Shown piece by piece: positions 2,388 to 37,829 of a stretch of DNA of 41,226 nt. The notes beneath the pieces are model-generated. The model was given only the letters and a program-made list of their open reading frames with translations. It had not been told where the DNA came from and did not search any database. Within the stretch, counting starts at the first letter, position 1, and each line of letters starts with the position of its first letter. Origin of the DNA: Pirellulales bacterium (GTDB lineage Bacteria > Planctomycetota > Planctomycetia > Pirellulales > JAICIG01); assembly GCA_035533075.1 (NCBI GenBank), contig DATLUO010000154.1:1-41226 (forward strand). The letters are read 5' to 3'. A program made the position numbers and the translations under genes.

Positions 2388-3800
2388 TCAGTGCATATTC
2401 ACGCTTTGCAATTCCCACGGCGTAAAGCCTTGCAGGTACCGCACGCGCACATTGCCGAATCCGGGCGGAGGCATGCTGAGCAGCGGCCCAAGGCTGGCAC
2501 TTGTCGCGGGCACAAGCGCCACGGTCCAGTTCTGATTGAGCAAGTCCCAACTTCGCGGCCGGTTCTGCCAGCGGACCCACCAAATCTGACGATTGCCGCC
2601 CAGCGCCGACGCCGCTTCGCCGGGCGCCGGCGGCGGCCCGGTGTCGCCGGGCACGCCGCCGTACAGTCCGCCCGGCGGCGGCAGGCCGGGCTCGTATTGC
2701 ACCAGCCGCGGCCGCGGAATGAACATCGTCACCTGGGCGTAGGCCATGTCGTCGGCGACGAGCGGATTGCGATACAGGCCCGGCAACGTCTGCCGAAGCT
2801 GTGGGCGATAACCAATGCCCACCCAGGTGAATTCCCGTTCCAGATGACTCTGGCGGTCGGCGATCGACTCGACCGGAGTACGGATGACGAACAGCATGTT
2901 CTGGGCGGTGTTTTCGACGTCCAGCAGCCAGTCGAGCTTGCCGCAGGTGAACCCGCGCCAGAAGTTGGCGAACTGGCTCATCTGCCCCTCGCTGTCGAAG
3001 CCTTGCAGCGTCTCCTTGTTCCAGGCGTCCAAATACTGGTGCGCCAAGGCGTGCCGCTGCTGCGTCGAGATCACAAAGTAATCGCCGCCCGGCAGGTCAC
3101 TGATCGGATCGACGACGGGCAACGTGCGCATCATCCAAGCGCCGGGGCCATCGTAGGTTGTGCCGAGTGCCTGCCCGGTCGTGCGCCACAGCGTGGCCAG
3201 GCAATCGCCGCGTCCGCCGTCGAGCAACCCGTGCTGCCGGGCAATCTCGCGGGCGGTCATCTGGGCGACCTGCGGCATCGTCGCGACGAGGGCCCGCTGA
3301 TACTTGGGAATCAGCTCCTGCGCGAGAATCTCTTCCAGCACCGGCAGAATCATGGCGCTGGCGGCGGACGACCACTCGGTGAACGAACGGACCATCTCGG
3401 CTTCCATGGGCACCTTGAGCGCGGTCGCGGTGCCTAAGGCGGAGAACTTGGGGAAGGGCGAGGCCGCCAGCCAGGGCGCCATGGCGGCCCAGGCGGCGAG
3501 CGCGTCGGGGGCAAGCGTTGCCGAGCTGCGGTCGCGGGCCTCGCGCATATAAGCGGTGAGGGCGAACACGTCGCAGATCAGGTGATTGGTGAAGGCCAGC
3601 GAGTTCATGCCTCGCGCCAGCATGACCCCGCCCGAATAGGTCGCCGCATCGGCCGCGTTCTGCATCCGCACCTTGCGATCGACCTGCCGGCCGACGTTCA
3701 TCACCATGCCCAATAGCATGGTCAATAGCAGCAGCGAGAACACCGAGAGCAGGCTGATCGTGCCATCCTGGTCGCGGTGCAGGCGTTGCAAGGTACGCAT
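2388..3800 (-). CDS. TadG-like Tad pilus protein
   Basis: The 470-residue product begins MRTLQRLHRDQDGTISLLSV, followed by a hydrophobic helix and the hallmark NAADAATYSGG of the putative Flp-pilus TadE/G-like N-terminal domain (PF13400 type). The rest is a large extracytoplasmic region without a recognised domain, containing a Pro/Gly-rich segment (PGLPPPGGLYGGVPGDTGPPP). The ATG at 3800 is the natural start; the frame runs upstream through intergenic repeats, but that part is low-quality Arg/Pro-rich translation. A palindromic repeat begins only 3 bp upstream of this ATG, so the leader of this gene inside the operon is repeat DNA. The inferred role is a pilus-associated envelope protein. 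Confidence 0.75.
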   Translation of the reverse strand: MRTLQRLHRDQDGTISLLSVFSLLLLTMLLGMVMNVGRQVDRKVRMQNAADAATYSGGVMLARGMNSLAFTNHLICDVFALTAYMREARDRSSATLAPDALAAWAAMAPWLAASPFPKFSALGTATALKVPMEAEMVRSFTEWSSAASAMILPVLEEILAQELIPKYQRALVATMPQVAQMTAREIARQHGLLDGGRGDCLATLWRTTGQALGTTYDGPGAWMMRTLPVVDPISDLPGGDYFVISTQQRHALAHQYLDAWNKETLQGFDSEGQMSQFANFWRGFTCGKLDWLLDVENTAQNMLFVIRTPVESIADRQSHLEREFTWVGIGYRPQLRQTLPGLYRNPLVADDMAYAQVTMFIPRPRLVQYEPGLPPPGGLYGGVPGDTGPPPAPGEAASALGGNRQIWWVRWQNRPRSWDLLNQNWTVALVPATSASLGPLLSMPPPGFGNVRVRYLQGFTPWELQSVNMH

Positions 3801-3802
3801 GG

Positions 3803-3957
3803 GTGGCTGGGGCAGAGCCTGGCCGCGAGACGGCCGTGAATACCGTAGGGCGGAATGGCCAGGCGATGCCCCGGTCGTCGCACCACCGGGGCATCGCGTG
3901 GCCGCCGCGCGGTTTTGCATGGCTGGCTCGATCGAGGCCACGCTCTGCCCCAGCCAC
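3803..3957. repeat. Dispersed palindromic repeat, family A (nested copy)
   Basis: The outer arms are GTGGCTGGGGCAGAGC (3803-3818) and its exact reverse complement GCTCTGCCCCAGCCAC (3942-3957). Inside is a second exact pair, GCGATGCCCCGG (3863-3874) and CCGGGGCATCGC (3886-3897). The same two modules recur near 9.4, 16.8 and 37.0 kb. The copy occupies most of the 220-bp gap between the TadE-like gene and the TadG-like start codon. Confidence 0.85.
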
Positions 3958-3958
3958 C

Positions 3959-4005
3959 GGCCGTCCAACGAGGCACGCGACGGCCTAGGAAGGCCATCCT
4001 CCACG
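3959..4005. repeat. Half copy of palindromic repeat family B
   Basis: GGCCGTCCAACG is followed by CGACGGCCTAGGAAGGCCATCCTCCA. This matches the loop end and the right arm of the perfect palindrome inside putA (21042-21074), with one base difference in the arm core. The left arm is missing; in its place is the end of the family A element. The two families are therefore joined at this site. Confidence 0.75.
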
Positions 4006-4020
4006 GTCGTCCTGCGAAGC

Positions 4021-4995
4021 TTACAACGCTTGCACATACGGCAGCACCGATTTCTCGCCCTCGTTGCCCAACGTAACGGTCGCGGAGATGGGATAGACAA
4101 ACACGCCGTCGCGCTGGCGAATTTTGCGCGCCAAGGTGTCGGGTTCGCCCGACGGCGATACCAGCGGCCGAGACAAGAACCGGCCGGGACCCGGCAGCAG
4201 CGCAAACTGGTGCGTCACCGTCACGGTGATCGGATCCTGCCAACCGACTTCCCAGACGTAGAACCGCTCCAGGTCCGGACCGAGCAGGCTGCGCACCAGA
4301 TACGGACCTAACGGCGGTTCATCGCCGCGGTGCAGGAACGTCACTTCCACCGACGTGGCCGCCGCGGCATACGCCAGCTTGTTGCGCAGCCGAACGTTGA
4401 CTTGCGGGTTGACGGCCGCTCGCGGCGCCAACGTTTGGTACAGCCGTTCGATCACACCACCGGCTGGCTGGTTTTGGCCGCCGATACCCACGTTACGCGA
4501 CGGGCAGATCGGCAAGCAGGCCAGCACCGCCGCCGTCTGGATCTTTTGCAGCTTCGGAGTGGGCGAGTTGATGCGATAGATCGTGCCGCCTTGGCCCGGC
4601 CCGACGACCGTGAGTAGCGGCCCCACCTGGTTCTCCCGCAAGTAAGGGCCGTAGGTGTCGAAATCGAAGTCATACTGCGGATCGTAAGGCTCGAGCCGGG
4701 CCGGAACCCAAACCACCGCGCTGCGCGCCGCTGCGAAGGCCGCGTAATGCACCACGATCGTGCCGATCAACACCTGACTCAATTGCACGATGAACAGCAT
4801 GACCATCACGAACATCGGCAGCACGAGCACGAAGCTCAGGCTCTGCACCGCGCCCGCTTGGTCGCCGTGCAACCGCGCCAGCCTGCCGAACCGCGGCCGC
4901 GCACCGCTCGCGCGCGCGATCGCCCAGGCCGCCGCTGTGGCGATCGCCAAAAGCAGCAACCAGGGACAAGAGGCTTGCAGGACAACTCGGTTCAT
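4021..4995 (-). CDS. TadE-like Tad pilus protein with two N-terminal hydrophobic segments
   Basis: This 324-residue protein has a first hydrophobic helix (residues about 7-28), a short basic loop, then DQAGAVQSLSFVLVLPMFV and a second helix (about 46-75). The second helix is the TadE-like segment; LHGDQAGAVQ matches the LHRDxxGAV context of the neighbouring pilins. The C-terminal 250 residues are extracytoplasmic and unrecognised. The start is the ATG at 4995. It lies between the prepilin peptidase and TadG-like genes on the same strand, separated by 171 bp and 220 bp of repeat-filled DNA. A minor pilin or assembly role is inferred. Confidence 0.7.
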   Translation of the reverse strand: MNRVVLQASCPWLLLLAIATAAAWAIARASGARPRFGRLARLHGDQAGAVQSLSFVLVLPMFVMVMLFIVQLSQVLIGTIVVHYAAFAAARSAVVWVPARLEPYDPQYDFDFDTYGPYLRENQVGPLLTVVGPGQGGTIYRINSPTPKLQKIQTAAVLACLPICPSRNVGIGGQNQPAGGVIERLYQTLAPRAAVNPQVNVRLRNKLAYAAAATSVEVTFLHRGDEPPLGPYLVRSLLGPDLERFYVWEVGWQDPITVTVTHQFALLPGPGRFLSRPLVSPSGEPDTLARKIRQRDGVFVYPISATVTLGNEGEKSVLPYVQAL

Positions 4996-5006
4996 TGCGG
5001 CGTAAA

Positions 5007-5041
5007 GATGAGGGATGAGAGATGAGGGACGAGGGATGAGG
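5007..5041. repeat. Heptanucleotide array GATGAGG, 5 units
   Basis: Five 7-bp units: GATGAGG, GATGAGA, GATGAGG, GACGAGG, GATGAGG. It is the reverse-complement partner of the array at 5129-5170, so the whole gap could form a large stem. Confidence 0.85.
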
Positions 5042-5128
5042 GAGGGACGTCGTGAGGACGAGAGCGAGCGTGCAACGCCGACCTACGACATCGCAGATTG
5101 AGGAACGGGGCACGGACAACTCCTTTAT

Positions 5129-5170
5129 CCCTCATCCCTCATCCCTCATCTCTAATCTCTGAACCCTCAT
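5129..5170. repeat. Heptanucleotide array CCCTCAT, 6 units
   Basis: Units are CCCTCAT three times, then CTCTAAT, CTCTGAA and CCCTCAT. The last unit runs into the stop codon of the prepilin peptidase gene (TGA read from 5169-5167). It is inverted relative to the array at 5007-5041. Confidence 0.85.
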
Positions 5171-5733
5171 CGCAGCAACCCACTATGCACCAATATGACG
5201 GCCGCCAGCGCCGTCGGCGCCAGGAACCAAGGAAAGGTCATCAGGGCACGTTCTTCCGGCGACAGCTCGGCCCAGCCACCGATCTTTAGAGTATACAAAC
5301 CTTGGCGAAAAACTCTCGCCATCAGCCTGCCGGGACCGACTTTCCAAGCCAAGGCGATGATGCCCAGACAGGCGGCCAGCACGAAGGTCCAGAGCAAGGC
5401 TTCCAGCCCGCGCTCGACGCCCAGGAACGCCCCCATCATAGCCATCAGCTTTACGTCGCCCCCGCCGACGCGGAACAGGACGTAGCAAACGAGCATCAAT
5501 CCGCCGCAGAGCGCAAGGCCGGCCAGGCTGTCTTCGATGCCGACCGCGCCGAGGTAGCGACGCGCCTGCTCGTCGGACACCGCCCCGTTCGACTCAAGCA
5601 CGCCGGCCGAGGCGTTCAGCGCCAGGGCGATCAGCACGCCGGGGTAGGTGGTCCAGTTATAGATTTTGTGCCGGGTGAAGTCGGTCGCGGCGGCGACGGC
5701 GATCAGCACAAACAGGCACGCGAGGGCGATCAT
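5167..5733 (-). CDS. Prepilin peptidase, TadV/CpaA type (A24 family)
   Basis: This 188-residue polytopic membrane protein is an aspartyl prepilin peptidase that cleaves and matures Flp-type pilins. The two catalytic aspartates are visible: D18 in ATDFTRHKIYN and D93 in RVGGGDVKLMAM. Its short length, without the N-terminal methylase domain of PilD, is typical of TadV/CpaA. The ATG at 5733 is chosen because it starts directly with the first transmembrane helix; the frame extends 21 codons upstream into the pilin gene. It begins 8 bp after the stop of the Flp-like pilin, which places enzyme and substrate in one operon. Confidence 0.9.
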   Translation of the reverse strand: MIALACLFVLIAVAAATDFTRHKIYNWTTYPGVLIALALNASAGVLESNGAVSDEQARRYLGAVGIEDSLAGLALCGGLMLVCYVLFRVGGGDVKLMAMMGAFLGVERGLEALLWTFVLAACLGIIALAWKVGPGRLMARVFRQGLYTLKIGGWAELSPEERALMTFPWFLAPTALAAVILVHSGLLR

Positions 5734-9123: not shown

Positions 9124-9426
9124 AAGCCGAGTAATCCGATTGTCGTGCCGCCTGGTCGCTCAGCCTCGATCGCTTCTACGCCGGCATGGCCCAGCGGCGC
9201 AGCGAAGCTTTTGGCCATGACGACGGCCAGACGGAGGGAAGCTGTGCGTGCCCGTCGCGGCACAATCTGTGGAGTGATGTCGCGGATGAATGGAATTGCC
9301 CCGCGGAGAGGCCGCGTCCTGCCGCCTGTATTGAACCTAGAAGCGTCTTACAACCGGCACAACCCCCCTAAGCGTTATGTCGCTTCTTAATTTTCAATCC
9401 GCCTAAACAAGAGAAACGGAATGGCC
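9124..9426. other. Gene-free stretch upstream of the sigma factor
   Basis: No credible coding sequence is seen here. It includes an AT-richer patch at about 9355-9415 (GTCGCTTCTTAATTTTCAAT), which is the expected place for the minus-strand promoter of the sigma gene, but no convincing -35/-10 pair could be assigned. The rest, to 9570, holds the family A palindrome and 70 bp of unremarkable sequence. Confidence 0.5.
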
Positions 9427-9500
9427 GTGGCTTGAGCAGAGCCTAAGCGATGCCCCGATGGTAGCGCATCGGGGCATCGCTTAGGCTCTGCCCCAGCCAC
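9427..9500. repeat. Dispersed palindromic repeat, family A (near-perfect copy)
   Basis: Two 34-bp arms (9427-9460 and 9467-9500) pair with only two mismatches around a 6-bp loop GTAGCG. Each arm holds the module order GTGGCT..CAGAGC, CTAA, GCGATGCCCCGATG. This is the cleanest copy of the family in the window. It lies 70 bp beyond the 3' end of the GH5 gene, where the hairpin could also act on transcript ends. Confidence 0.9.
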
Positions 9501-9570
9501 CGCATTTTGTCAGCGATGACGGGCCCATTTGGGGTCGCGCGACGTAGATCGCCGGACGCAACGGGCACGG

Positions 9571-16790: not shown

Positions 16791-16801
16791 TTAGTGCTCT
16801 G

Positions 16802-16896
16802 TCGGGGCATCGCTTGGCCGCAGAGCGTGTCCTCAAACCGGGCCCGTCCTGGCCAAGCTCTGCCCCAGCCACCGCCGCTGCTTCGCGATGCCCCGA
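16802..16896. repeat. Dispersed palindromic repeat, family A (rearranged copy)
   Basis: TCGGGGCATCGC (16802-16813) and its exact reverse complement GCGATGCCCCGA (16885-16896) flank GCTCTGCCCCAGCCAC (16857-16872). The module order differs from the 9.4-kb copy, since here the GCGATGCCCCG arms are outermost. It occupies most of the 188-bp gap after the symporter gene. Confidence 0.8.
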
Positions 16897-19086: not shown

Positions 19087-22000
19087 GTGCGCGACGAGTT
19101 TGCCCGACTCGACGAACTGACCCCGCGAGACCTCGAAAACATCGAGCGCACGACGCGCGAGGTGGGTGATTACCTATTCGCCCATCTCGAGGGCCGCCGG
19201 GCCAGCGTTTTCGAGCGGCGTTGGTGGGACGATCGCGTCATGGCCTGGGCCCTGCGCGACGAATCGGTGAAGGTGCAGATGTTCCGCTTCATCGACGTGC
19301 TGCCGATGCTCAACAGCACCGCCGCGGTCGTGGGGCACCTGCACGAATACTTCCACGAAGTCGAACGGCATTTGCCCGGCGCGGTCCGGTTGGCGTTGGC
19401 CGCGGCCACGCCCGACTCGCTGATGGGCCGGGCCATGGCCATCGCCGCCCGACGAAACGCGATGGGACACGCGCGGCGGTTCATCGCCGGCGCCAACACG
19501 GCCGAGGTTCTCGCCGCCGCCATGCGCGAGCGCAAACTCCGCCGCGCCTTTACGCTCGATATCTTGGGCGAAGCCGTGACGAGCGAAGTCGAGGCCGACC
19601 GCTATTGGCGGCTCTACCTCGACCTGATCGAACAGATCAGCCCCACGGTCAACGCCTGGCGTGAAGAGCCGCAGATCGATCGCGCAGGACTCAGCGAGCT
19701 GCCGCGGGTAAACCTGTCGATCAAGCTCTCGGCGCTCGACAGCCGCTTCGACCCGATCGACCCGGAGGGAACGATGCAGCGGGTCGGCCGCCGCTTGCGT
19801 CCGCTGTTGCGACTGGCCCGCGAGCATCATGCCCACATCCACGTCGATATGGAGTCGTATCAGACCAAGGCGCTCACGCTCCGTATCTTTCGCGAAATCT
19901 TGATGGAGCCGGAGTTCCGCGATTGGCCGCACGTGGGCATCGTCATTCAGGCGTATCTGCGCGATGCGGCCGACGACCTTGTGTCGCTCGGCAAGTGGGC
20001 GCGCGAGCGCGGCACGCCCGTGTGGGTGCGGCTGGTCAAAGGAGCTTATTGGGACTACGAGACGATCCATGCCCAGTCGGTCGGCTGGCCGCTGCCGGTC
20101 TGGCAGGAGAAATGGCAGTCGGACGCCAACTTCGAGCAGCTTACGCGATACCTGCTCATGCACCGCGACGTGCTCAAGACCGCGCTGGGGAGCCACAACC
20201 TCCGCTCGCTGGCGCACGGCATCGCGGTGGCCCGGCACCTCGGCCTCTCGCCCAGCGCCTTCGAGCTGCAGATGCTCTACGGCATGGGCGACCAGGAAAA
20301 GCAAGCGCTGGTCGATCTCGGCCATCGCATGCGGATTTACATGCCTTACGGCGAGCTGATTCCGGGCATGGCTTATCTCGTGCGCCGGCTGTTGGAAAAC
20401 ACGTCAAACGATTCCTTCCTCAGGGCGAGTTTTGCCGAAGAGATTTCGCCGGAGAGACTCCTTATGAACCCGCTTGAACATCGTTCGGAAAAAACCGTAG
20501 GCATCTCGCTCCGCGAGATGAATCCCCACGCGGAGCGTGAGGCCTACGGTACGTTCTCCAATGAACCCACGGCCGACTTTGCCCGTGAGGAAAACCGCCA
20601 GGCGATGCAAGCCGCGCTTGCGCAGGTTGGCGAGCAGCTCGGCCGCCACTGTCCGCTTTGGATCGCCGGCCGGCCGGTAGACACCGGCGACCGGCTGACG
20701 TCGATCGATCCCTCGCATGGCGAGCGCGTCGTCGGCACCAGTGCCGCCGCTTCGGCCGAACATGTCGACCAGGCCGTCGCCGCGGCCAAAGGCGCCTTGG
20801 CCGAGTGGAACGGCCTGGGGGTCGAGGCCCGTGCGGACTTTTTGCGTCGCGCCGCCGAGGTGCTCAGGCGTCGGCGTTTCGAGCTGGCCGCCTGGGAAGT
20901 CTACGAGTGCGGCAAAGGCTGGCGCGAGTCCGACGCCGACATTTGCGAGGCCATCGACTTTTGCGAGTTCTATGCGCGTGAGGCGATGTTTCTGCAAGGC
21001 GCTGGAGGATGGCCTTCCCAGGCCGTCCCGGAAATCGAAGGACCAACGGCACGGCCTGGGAAGGCCATCCTCCATGGCGTCGATGTGCCCGGCGAGGAAA
21101 ACCGCTTCACCTATCTTCCCCGCGGCGTGACCGGCGTGATCGCGCCCTGGAACTTTCCCTTGGCAATTCTGACCGGCATGACCACGGCGGCCTTGGTCAC
21201 CGGTAATACCGTGGTAATGAAGCCGGCCGAACAATCGCCGGTCATCGCCGCCAAGCTCATGGAGACCTTCGACGAAGTCGGCCTGCCGAAGGGCGTGCTC
21301 AACTATCTGCCCGGCACGGGCGAGGTGGCCGGCGCGCGGCTGGTCGAACATCCCGACACGGCGCTGATCGCCTTTACCGGCTCGCGCAGCGTGGGCCTGG
21401 CGATCAACCGCCGGGCGGCGGAAGTTTCGGCTGCCGGCATCGGCTACGTGAAGCGGGTGATCGCGGAAATGGGCGGAAAGAACGCCATCCTTATCGACGA
21501 CGACGCCGATCTCGACGAGGCCGTGATGGCCGTGGTCAAAAGCGCGTTCGGCTATCAGGGTCAGAAATGCTCGGCCTGTTCGCGGGTGATCGTGCTGGCA
21601 GGCGTGCATGACGCCTTTGTCAATCGGCTGGTCGAGGCGACGCGCAGCTTGCAGGTCGGCCCGGCGGAGGATGCGGCCACCAGCGTCGGGCCGGTGATCG
21701 ACGCCGACGCCCAGGCCCGCGTCCGCGACTACATCGACGTCGGCCGGCGCGAGGCCCGCGAGCTCCTGGCGGTCGACGTCGGCGCGTTGGCGGAACAAGG
21801 CTTCTTCGTCGGGCCACATATCTTCGCCGACGTGCATTCCGATTCGCGATTGGCACAAGAAGAGATCTTCGGCCCGGTGTTGGCCGTGATCCGTGCCCGC
21901 GATCTCGACGAGGCGTTCGCCATCTTCAACGGCACGCCCTACGCGTTGACCGGCGGCATCTTTTCTCGCAGCCCTGCGCATCTCGATCGTGCCCGGCGCG

Positions 22001-22221
22001 AGTTGATGGTCGGCAATCTCTATCTCAACCGCGGCATCACGGGCGCGCTGGTGGGGCGGCAGCCGTTCGGCGGGTTCAAAATGTCGGGCATCGGCAGCAA
22101 GGCCGGCGGGCACGACTACCTCTTGCAGTTCGTGATTCCGCGCACGATCACCGAGAACACCATGCGCCGCGGCTTCGCCCCGCCCGCCGCCGGCCCCGCC
22201 GGACCGCAAAGCGGAGAATGA
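19087..22221 (+). CDS. putA: Bifunctional proline dehydrogenase / P5C dehydrogenase PutA, with two in-frame palindromic inserts
   Basis: This 1044-residue enzyme oxidises proline to glutamate. The PRODH barrel (about 60-450) shows NLSIKLSALDSRFDP, HVDMES, RLVKGAYWDYE, GSHNLRSLAHG and LYGMGD. The aldehyde dehydrogenase (about 515-1025) has PWNFPLAILTGMT, FTGSRSVGL, EMGGKNA, catalytic C828 in YQGQKCSACSR, and EEIFGPVLAV. Start is GTG 19087 (no ATG fits; AAAGGACGACCAACGCAC upstream is a weak ribosome binding site). Residues 470-488 (linker) and 640-663 (dehydrogenase entry) are encoded by palindromic repeats that normal PutA sequences lack. It has no N-terminal DNA-binding domain, so it is not a self-regulating PutA of the enterobacterial type. 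Confidence 0.95.
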   Translation: MRDEFARLDELTPRDLENIERTTREVGDYLFAHLEGRRASVFERRWWDDRVMAWALRDESVKVQMFRFIDVLPMLNSTAAVVGHLHEYFHEVERHLPGAVRLALAAATPDSLMGRAMAIAARRNAMGHARRFIAGANTAEVLAAAMRERKLRRAFTLDILGEAVTSEVEADRYWRLYLDLIEQISPTVNAWREEPQIDRAGLSELPRVNLSIKLSALDSRFDPIDPEGTMQRVGRRLRPLLRLAREHHAHIHVDMESYQTKALTLRIFREILMEPEFRDWPHVGIVIQAYLRDAADDLVSLGKWARERGTPVWVRLVKGAYWDYETIHAQSVGWPLPVWQEKWQSDANFEQLTRYLLMHRDVLKTALGSHNLRSLAHGIAVARHLGLSPSAFELQMLYGMGDQEKQALVDLGHRMRIYMPYGELIPGMAYLVRRLLENTSNDSFLRASFAEEISPERLLMNPLEHRSEKTVGISLREMNPHAEREAYGTFSNEPTADFAREENRQAMQAALAQVGEQLGRHCPLWIAGRPVDTGDRLTSIDPSHGERVVGTSAAASAEHVDQAVAAAKGALAEWNGLGVEARADFLRRAAEVLRRRRFELAAWEVYECGKGWRESDADICEAIDFCEFYAREAMFLQGAGGWPSQAVPEIEGPTARPGKAILHGVDVPGEENRFTYLPRGVTGVIAPWNFPLAILTGMTTAALVTGNTVVMKPAEQSPVIAAKLMETFDEVGLPKGVLNYLPGTGEVAGARLVEHPDTALIAFTGSRSVGLAINRRAAEVSAAGIGYVKRVIAEMGGKNAILIDDDADLDEAVMAVVKSAFGYQGQKCSACSRVIVLAGVHDAFVNRLVEATRSLQVGPAEDAATSVGPVIDADAQARVRDYIDVGRREARELLAVDVGALAEQGFFVGPHIFADVHSDSRLAQEEIFGPVLAVIRARDLDEAFAIFNGTPYALTGGIFSRSPAHLDRARRELMVGNLYLNRGITGALVGRQPFGGFKMSGIGSKAGGHDYLLQFVIPRTITENTMRRGFAPPAAGPAGPQSGE
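20494..20550. repeat. In-frame imperfect palindrome in putA linker (57 bp)
   Basis: Arm 1 (20494-20515, starting ACCGTAGGCATCTCGCTCC) pairs with arm 2 (20529-20550, ending GTGAGGCCTACGGT) over 22 bp with 3 mismatches around a 13-bp loop. Length is 57 bp, 19 whole codons, encoding TVGISLREMNPHAEREAYG. Arm 1 also contains a short hairpin (CATCTCG..CGAGATG). It lies exactly between the PRODH domain and the N(E)EPTADF linker start of the aldehyde dehydrogenase. Confidence 0.85.
21003..21074. repeat. In-frame perfect palindrome in putA (72 bp, family B)
   Basis: Arm 1 (21003-21026) and arm 2 (21051-21074) are exact reverse complements over 24 bp, around a 24-bp loop. The arm reads TGGAGGATGGCC, TTCCCAGGCCGT. 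Length is 72 bp, 24 codons, and the reading frame is kept, giving GGWPSQAVPEIEG then PTARPGKAILHG in the protein. The right arm and loop end match the intergenic half copy at 3959-4005. This is a member of a dispersed palindrome family sitting inside a gene. Confidence 0.95.
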
Positions 22222-36939: not shown

Positions 36940-37022
36940 GGCGCGATCCCTCCGCCTATCTCGATTCGGCCCACGCGACGCACCTATATAGCACGCGGCT
37001 GACATTGGGGCCAGAATACATG

Positions 37023-37044
37023 GTGGCTGGGACAGAGCTTGGCC
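37023..37044. repeat. Dispersed palindromic repeat, family A (solo half)
   Basis: GTGGCTGGGACAGAGC followed by TTGGCC matches the outer arm of the family A copy at 3803 with one difference, but no opposing arm is near. It lies 9 bp past the stop of the heme protein gene on the minus strand. Confidence 0.7.
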
Positions 37045-37052
37045 GGACGGGG

Positions 37053-37642: not shown

Positions 37643-37726
37643 CGTAGAGCAAGCGTCCCGCTTGCTTTTCGCCCGGCCGGGCGGGGCGTTGCGAGCGACG
37701 ATTCAAGCGGGAACGCTTGCTCTACG
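37643..37726. repeat. Intergenic hairpin repeat with GTAGAGCAAGCG arms
   Basis: CGTAGAGCAAGCGTCCCGCT (from 37643) pairs with the arm at 37704-37726, ending GGGAACGCTTGCTCTACG, with one base indel over about 22 bp around a 40-bp loop. It lies in the leader of the heme protein gene, between it and the Rrf2 operator region. A third palindrome family, unrelated to A and B. Confidence 0.8.
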
Positions 37727-37748
37727 CGGCGGATAGCGGATAATAAAG

Positions 37749-37812
37749 TCCAGTTATCCGTTTCAGGCCCGAAGATACCCGACCTAAACTGGATGTCAAG
37801 GTCCAGTTATCC
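37749..37812. promoter_or_regulatory. Operator-like repeats upstream of the Rrf2 gene
   Basis: TCCAGTTATCC occurs twice as direct repeat (37749-37759 and 37802-37812), both with AAAG/AAGG before it. Between them AACTGGA (37787-37793) and TCCAGTT (37802-37808) form a 7-bp inverted pair with 8-bp spacer, just 17 bp before the Rrf2 ATG. The layout is that of an autoregulated Rrf2 operator, shared with the divergent heme protein gene. Inference from position and symmetry. Confidence 0.65.
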
Positions 37813-37829
37813 TTTTTCTGCAAGCCGCC

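Follow-up and report, generated by a model that had tools for sequence, protein, structure and literature searches.

Results

The tadE-tadG locus and its palindromes

The window analysed here is one whole contig of 41,226 bases, from a Pirellulales source genome of 8.54 Mb in 296 contigs. It carries a tadE-like gene and a tadG gene on the minus strand, and genes for a type IV prepilin peptidase and a T2SS/T4-type ATPase lie upstream of both. Two palindromic repeats, A and B, form a composite that abuts ATG 3800, the codon from which the preliminary description began tadG. The features of the locus are:

4021-4995, minus strand: tadE-like gene (Pfam TadE), upstream of tadG
4035-4037, minus strand: ATG, proposed true start codon of tadG, overlapping the last tadE codons and found at the same position in relatives
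2388-4037, minus strand: tadG in the model proposed here, 549 aa, with the composite as codons 12-79
2388-3800, minus strand: tadG in the earlier model, 470 aa from ATG 3800
3959-4002, minus strand: repeat B, truncated dimer, with its full unit at 4002-3979 (GGAGGATGGCCTTCCTAGGCCGTC on the minus strand)
3802-3958, no strand assigned: repeat A, complete core copy of 157 bp, made of U and the reverse complement of U
3802-3824, plus strand: A arm a1 (GGTGGCTGGGGCAGAGCCTGGCC), forming the outer stem and then the left side hairpin, placed by covariation
3857-3875, plus strand: A arm a2 (GGCCAGGCGATGCCCCGGT), pairing with a1 (upper part) and, in the central stem, with a3
3885-3903, plus strand: A arm a3 (ACCGGGGCATCGCGTGGCC), in the central stem and the right side hairpin
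3936-3958, plus strand: A arm a4 (GGCCACGCTCTGCCCCAGCCACC), placed by sequence and covariation

Further copies of both repeats in the window are:

9424-9503, no strand assigned: short A with the same arms, without the side loops
16797-16873, no strand assigned: half A element
37022-37045, plus strand: single A arm with the long-form flank outside the arm
21003-21074, no strand assigned: complete B dimer inside putA (19087-22221, plus strand), an in-frame insertion

Repeat A at 3802-3958 has the foot GGTGGCT on both ends, perfect outer arms of 17 bp (3802-3818 and 3942-3958) and an inner palindrome at 3857-3903. In the truncated B, the full unit is followed by a 13-nt spacer (3978-3966) and then by the first 7 nt of a second unit (3965-3959). 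The composite measures 201 nt, or 67 codons, when taken from the B foot GGAG to the last base of A. The palindromes of the preliminary description are real, and two families do meet here, a complete A (3802-3958) adjoining a truncated B (3959-4002). The distance of 3 bp that it gave between the end of A and the ATG is corrected to 1 nt (ATG 3800-3798).

The TadG-like gene matched the Pfam domain Tad (E 8e-9), which covered residues 92-137 of the proposed 549-aa TadG. No consensus promoter and no terminator-like site was found at the repeat, and both terminator-like sites that were found sit within tadE. Runs of ATCCCTCATC-type repeats, some of them inverted, were observed close to the Tad genes at 5006-5044, 5120-5171 and 2359-2382. 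Two direct 41-nt copies, 71% alike and 53 bp apart, were also observed at 37723-37763 and 37776-37816.

Repeats A and B are dispersed families

Arm profiles were run on 600,632 bp of the genome, a sample taken regardless of repeat matches. They recovered 23 A-type arms and 25-27 B-type units, compared with 0-1 in a second-order Markov shuffle, so that chance is excluded as the origin of the palindromes. The profile scores showed almost no tail of weak matches. At least 80 genome-wide matches to an A query were obtained, with 40 of the 425 candidates scored, and 38 A cores were found, 37 of which could be parsed and used for covariation. The core of about 155 bp consists of U followed by its reverse complement, where U is GGTGGCTGGGGCAGAGCYTGGCC-N(about 35)-GGCCARGCGATGCCCCGGT with conserved ends. 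These ends, GTGG and CT, were 98-100% conserved in 93 arms, with GTGG two nt from the stem. Short halves like the short A at 9424-9503 were also seen at L017:19178 and L061:7. In repeat B two GGAGGATGGCCTTCCYAGGCCGTC units form a dimer, with a separation of 12-13 nt in 12 of 16 pairs. Called coding sequence held 9 of 73 A and 15 of 44 B elements when the window, the biased stretches and the other stretches were taken together, so the families are mainly extragenic, more weakly so for B. A query spanning A and B matched two of 39 genomes, the source genome and G001, which is the only genome of the same family among the 39 relatives.

We measured how often A and B stand next to each other using stretches L049-L128 only, which hold 33 A and 34 B elements in 1,214,339 bp, with gene calls from a purpose-built caller. 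Stretches L009-L028 had been picked around A matches, whereas L049-L088 were taken regardless of matches; L089-L128 include contigs from match lists, of which the first 20 kb were taken. B stood within 100 bp of 4 of the 33 A elements, where random intergenic placement expects 0.86 (P 0.01), and within 30 bp of 2 (0.58 expected, P 0.11). Most A and B elements stand apart. Genome-wide, a B end followed by an A arm within 2-32 nt occurred at 18 places, and three of these (the window, C173 and C268) had 18-20 nt between B and A. In the window the second B unit gives way to A after 7 nt; no such remnant was seen in C173 or C268. A joint preferred by some mechanism was ruled out on the rarity of the 18-20 nt layout and the differing junction points. 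The genome-wide check thus showed that other A-B neighbours exist and that the joint is not unique; it is a modest excess, not a rule, and the same figures leave the earlier proposal of a special act by which the families combine unsupported.

Position of the tadG start

The minus-strand ATG 4037-4035 is in frame with tadG, and the frame runs without a stop through B and A. Because the repeats are G+C-rich, stops are few in the tadE-tadG gap of the window (one of the three frames has one), and an open frame counts there as weak evidence by itself. The open frame before the equivalent of Met 3800 is 79 codons in the window and 48 codons in G001. The 18 nt before ATG 3800 were 5% unpaired, below the starts of 300 of 300 other genes, and held no Shine-Dalgarno-like sequence; before ATG 4037, 40% of bases were unpaired. 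The codon-usage gene caller of the present analysis starts tadG at 3800, as is expected of codon statistics past a repeat. The conserved overlapping ATG falls in codons that are also conserved for TadE.

We also folded the composite. The strand that carries tadG gave -145.5 kcal/mol against -105.1 ± 5.1 kcal/mol for its shuffles (z -8.0), with 0 of 200 shuffles as stable, and the opposite strand gave z -9.6. The stable fold anticipated by the preliminary description was therefore found. Occlusion of the start codon as a feature common to the genera of the window and G001 (about 5% unpaired in each, the G001 value being approximate) was considered and dropped once the overlapping start had been found; the unpaired fraction at another G001 TTG was 0.158.

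The tadE-tadG junction in other Pirellulales

An order-wide search matched 43 of 396 genomes at 1e-40. The loci of 30 of these 43 genomes were examined as a first set (29 usable, one without a TadE match), and 14 further loci, comprising the remaining matches and one weaker, as a second set (13 usable). In 23 of 29 loci of the first set and 10 of 13 of the second, 33 of 42 in total, tadG had a start in frame that overlaps the tadE end. Coupling is not universal, as 9 of the 42 loci had no overlapping start. Where present, this start was commonly an ATG located 17-20 nt upstream of the last base of the tadE stop codon. At loci with short tails, such as G238 (9 codons) and L185 (5 codons), the overlapping ATG is the natural start. 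Relatives without insertions showed no gap at all between tadE and tadG, and therefore need no separate ribosome-binding site for tadG.

The tadE-tadG gap of G001 holds a palindrome of a different, GTAG-ended family, with an overlapping start at the equivalent place; this palindrome had 236 matches in G001 and 139 in the source genome at up to 3 mismatches. In the window as in G001, the gap extends up to the conserved part of TadG. Other palindromes were found in the tails of L175 (G094), L179 (G064), L180 (G253) and L187 (G225). Palindromes were scored against 20 shuffles each and were called clear when at least 3 above the best shuffle, a margin chosen after the scores had been seen. Clear palindromes were present in the window, G001, L175, L179, L180, L187, L198 and L206. 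Palindromic tadG tails thus occur in seven genomes besides the source genome, all in the frame that overlaps tadE, and both clear-palindrome loci among the later-fetched test loci, L198 and L206, keep this frame. The frame was open from the overlapping start in all 8 clear palindromic tails, compared with 5 of 13 other gaps of at least 90 nt (Fisher P 0.006); under random frames the chance of 8 out of 8 is about (1/3)^8. The two other frames contained 4 and 4 stops in L175 and 2 and 4 in L180, and the tadG frame contained none. One locus, L199, does not fit: its gap spans 438 nt, no start overlaps tadE and the palindrome is marginal, scoring 12 when its best shuffle scored 11.

The element in L180 is a dispersed repeat, its probe matching at 201 places in G253, 18 in G173, 59 in G225 and none in the source genome (up to 2 mismatches). 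Locus L184 (G173) carries half an L180-type element in its tadG tail, also in frame. In that tail, a GTGCCAC-type half repeat adjoins a hairpin, GGGGCAGCGCTGCGCTATGCCCCAGCCACC, as a composite of two families at the same place, and the hairpin and A have an AGCCACC foot in common. Three genomes of the genus g61 differed in this respect: the tail of G238 spans 9 codons and has no palindrome, whereas those of G094 (85 codons) and G225 (33 codons) each carry one, of different kinds. Repeat-bearing tadG loci (7 of 29) were compared with 778 genes, 40 of which had a repeat within their first 100 codons or within an open extension upstream, and exceeded this background (P 0.0005), which is a rough lower bound drawn from seven repeat patterns in one genome. 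No empty tadG site was found in the same genus as the window, and the gap of the sister genome is filled by another repeat. A literature search for TadG together with repetitive extragenic elements found no paper.

These comparisons make ATG 4037, on the upstream side of the composite, the probable start of tadG translation. The ATG at 3800 is improbable as a start and would then encode an internal Met. The preliminary description had placed the composite between two genes, directly before the tadG start, and had concluded that the tadG message has a strongly structured leader. The first claim is probably wrong, the in-frame ATG 4037 overlapping tadE and being kept in relatives. In the second, the strong structure is borne out by the z of -8.0, and its assignment to a leader is probably mistaken in view of the comparative start.

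Message protection has been proposed for REPs in E. coli operons, where intercistronic REPs of the malE-malF type occur. The composite resembles these in its stable RNA hairpin and, if ATG 3800 is the start, in its place between operon genes. Under such an account tadG starts at 3800, and the hairpin hides the ribosome-binding region, reduces the amount of TadG compared with TadE and shields the tadE message. The z of the fold, the almost fully paired 18 nt at -18 to -1 (0 of 300 genes as low), the choice of the gene caller and the different repeat at the same place in the sister genome are all in its favour, as are the roles reported for REPs as exoribonuclease barriers and as translation attenuators near stop codons (PMC12306157). 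However, the attenuators described there lie within a stated 15 nt, and the first repeat base here is 18 nt past the tadE stop. The account is also opposed by the overlapping start, present in 33 of 42 loci, by the consistent frame of the palindromic tails and by the gapless junction of insertion-free relatives, at which a separate ribosome-binding site is unneeded; we consider it unlikely. In contrast to malE-malF-type repeats, the composite is most likely coding.

The conserved fold of repeat A

Two readings of A were compared in 37 cores. As two separate half-hairpins, A showed 10 pairs changed on both sides and 93.5% of cells paired, and 0 of 500 shuffles were as high. As a single long hairpin, it showed 2 such pairs and 89.2% of cells paired, below its own shuffles. 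Columns 18 x 62, within one half, were CG in 18 cores and UA in 12. Columns 128 x 173 were CG in 15, UA in 15, UG in 3 and GC in one, the window copy, whose G-C pair between a3 and a4 is unique among the 37. The long-hairpin reading pairs columns 18 x 173, which were non-pairs in 15 of 33. The RNAalifold consensus, given free choice, was a four-arm cloverleaf with an outer stem, two side hairpins and a central stem, and the covariation in A fits two half-hairpins and the cloverleaf alike. Under RNA parameters the nested long hairpin was the most stable fold for 33 of the 37 cores, and under DNA parameters for 32; despite this greater stability, it is ruled out by covariation as the conserved fold of A. 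The half-hairpins co-vary within each half and therefore matter at some step, which would most simply be one with single-stranded DNA.

Long forms of repeat A

Many copies of A belong to long forms of 225-234 bp, which carry TATACTTCACGCGGCCGAGAATGAGAC at both ends. Eleven paired long forms were found (for example L012:3701-3934 and L019:11383-11615), six of them with TA outside both ends. The flank TATACTTCACGCGGC lay within 70 nt outside 48 of 108 A arms, compared with 23 of 3000 random places, and its sequence had 131 matches in the genome at up to 3 mismatches, with none in the control. The A copy in the window is without the TATACTTCACGCGGCCGAGAATGAGAC flanks of the long form, and core-only copies, this one included, stop exactly at GGTGGCT on both sides.

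Long-form A resembles MITEs in its terminal inverted repeats; the window copy has no such repeats and no target-site duplication. A could be a MITE moved by a DDE transposase, its mobile unit being the long form with TATACTTCACGCGGCCGAGAATGAGAC terminal repeats and the core copies being remnants, which would place the insertion junctions at TATACTTC rather than at GGTGGCT. The association of the flank with A arms, its many genome matches and the TA pairs suit this origin. However, it does not account for the exact ends of the core-only copies, the flanks almost never occur without A, and TA on both sides is missing in 5 of the 11 long forms. Moreover, REP dimers of Anabaena are described as housed in long TATA-ended palindromes (PMC3733652), so that a flank need not be a mobile end. 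We regard a MITE origin as doubtful.

A regulatory RNA or riboswitch-like leader, to which the compensatory changes in A might point, is highly improbable, since a search against Rfam returned no family at gathering score (the best were miRNA models far below their cut-offs) and the copies occupy tandem, convergent, divergent and coding positions, which do not fit a cis-regulator.

Discussion

Repeats A and B look like REP dimers and appear to work as such, and we call them REPIN-like on that ground, strict REPIN membership not being claimed. Like the REP dimers and REPINs (BIMEs) of Pseudomonas, E. coli and other bacteria, they are inverted palindromic units in many, mostly intergenic copies and form mosaics of families. 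They have many near-identical copies and inverted units with a short spacer (37 A cores and 16 B pairs), and A has compensatory hairpin changes (37 cores). REPs are described as following a GTAG/GTGG tetranucleotide rule, and a CCAC far end marks the 'double foot' type (PMC6006769); A has both GTGG two nt from its stem and the CCAC far end. In contrast, the B foot is GGAG and not GT[AG]G, and the side loops of A are about 35 nt, whereas Table 1 of PMC3733652 gives REP loops of 2-20. Both the long hairpin and the clover are among the folds described for REPINs (PMC3116915), and hybrid REP dimers of two families are described in S. maltophilia (PMC3733652).

Unlike strict REPINs, neither repeat has a RAYT beside it. 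None of the 12 Y1_Tnp matches in the 296-contig assembly was flanked by A or B: at up to 4 mismatches, A arms occurred near a single locus, at a distance of 1.2 kb from the transposase gene, and at up to 3 mismatches B units occurred near none of the 12. Several Y1 transposase genes were flanked by other palindromes (L046:1190-1440 and 2190-2400; L048:1050-1200; L037:1230-1460), such as GTAGCCCGCTTGCTCCGC and the tandem GTAGGGAACGCCCTCAGTGGCGTTCCG.

The PutA alignment with the sister genome G001 showed a 25-residue gap at the B dimer, with conserved sequence on either side. Judged by this empty homologue, B does insert in frame in coding sequence, and G001 putA lends indirect support only to the mobility of B. 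Palindromic repeats in frame within protein genes have been described (PMC10969869, PMC3733652). The Rickettsia palindromic elements, compared here by description, are the established precedent (PMC10969869) and share the in-frame insertion that B has in putA and that the composite would have in tadG. Those elements are described from many genes, whereas here unrelated repeat families of different genomes have one target, the N-terminal tail of a single gene. The kind of element is mostly known; what is new is that the tail of one gene has repeatedly captured unrelated palindromes in frame. A caution in PMC3733652 is that wrong start calls may account for many repeats at predicted N-termini, which would then be extragenic. 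Our comparison of junctions argues the opposite, with the automatic tadG start lying too far downstream.

We consider it likely that the composite is a REPIN-like A abutting a truncated REPIN-like B, forming an in-frame insertion of 67 codons near the 5' end of tadG, and not a leader. A and B would have moved by single-strand (RAYT-like) transposition. Translation of tadG would start at ATG 4037 by coupling to tadE, and ribosomes would read through B and then A to give a low-complexity stretch of 67 codons, rich in G, P, S, A and R. The added stretch would lengthen the TadG N-terminal tail, which precedes the membrane segment and is predicted to be cytoplasmic and unstructured. The insertion would persist because the tail tolerates it, and we infer tolerance rather than benefit.

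A further reading goes beyond this single insertion and is speculative and rather improbable. The TadG tail of Pirellulales would be a recurrent landing site, where only in-frame insertions survive because tadE and tadG overlap. REPIN-encoded peptides would then become new variable tail segments, and the length, charge and RNA hairpin of the junction would be retuned, which may affect the pilus in a way that is selected.

The compensatory changes in A indicate that the fold relevant to spread is the half-hairpins or the cloverleaf, though the long hairpin is more stable. If tadG starts at 4037, gene callers will place the start immediately downstream of a repeat, as at 3800, and coding repeats will be annotated as intergenic. 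The in-frame insertion would mean that REPIN-like elements shape a protein, not a leader, in a phylum with few descriptions of them. The tadE-tadG junction would then be a natural repeated experiment, with at least eight genomes of one order and with empty and filled states within one genus.
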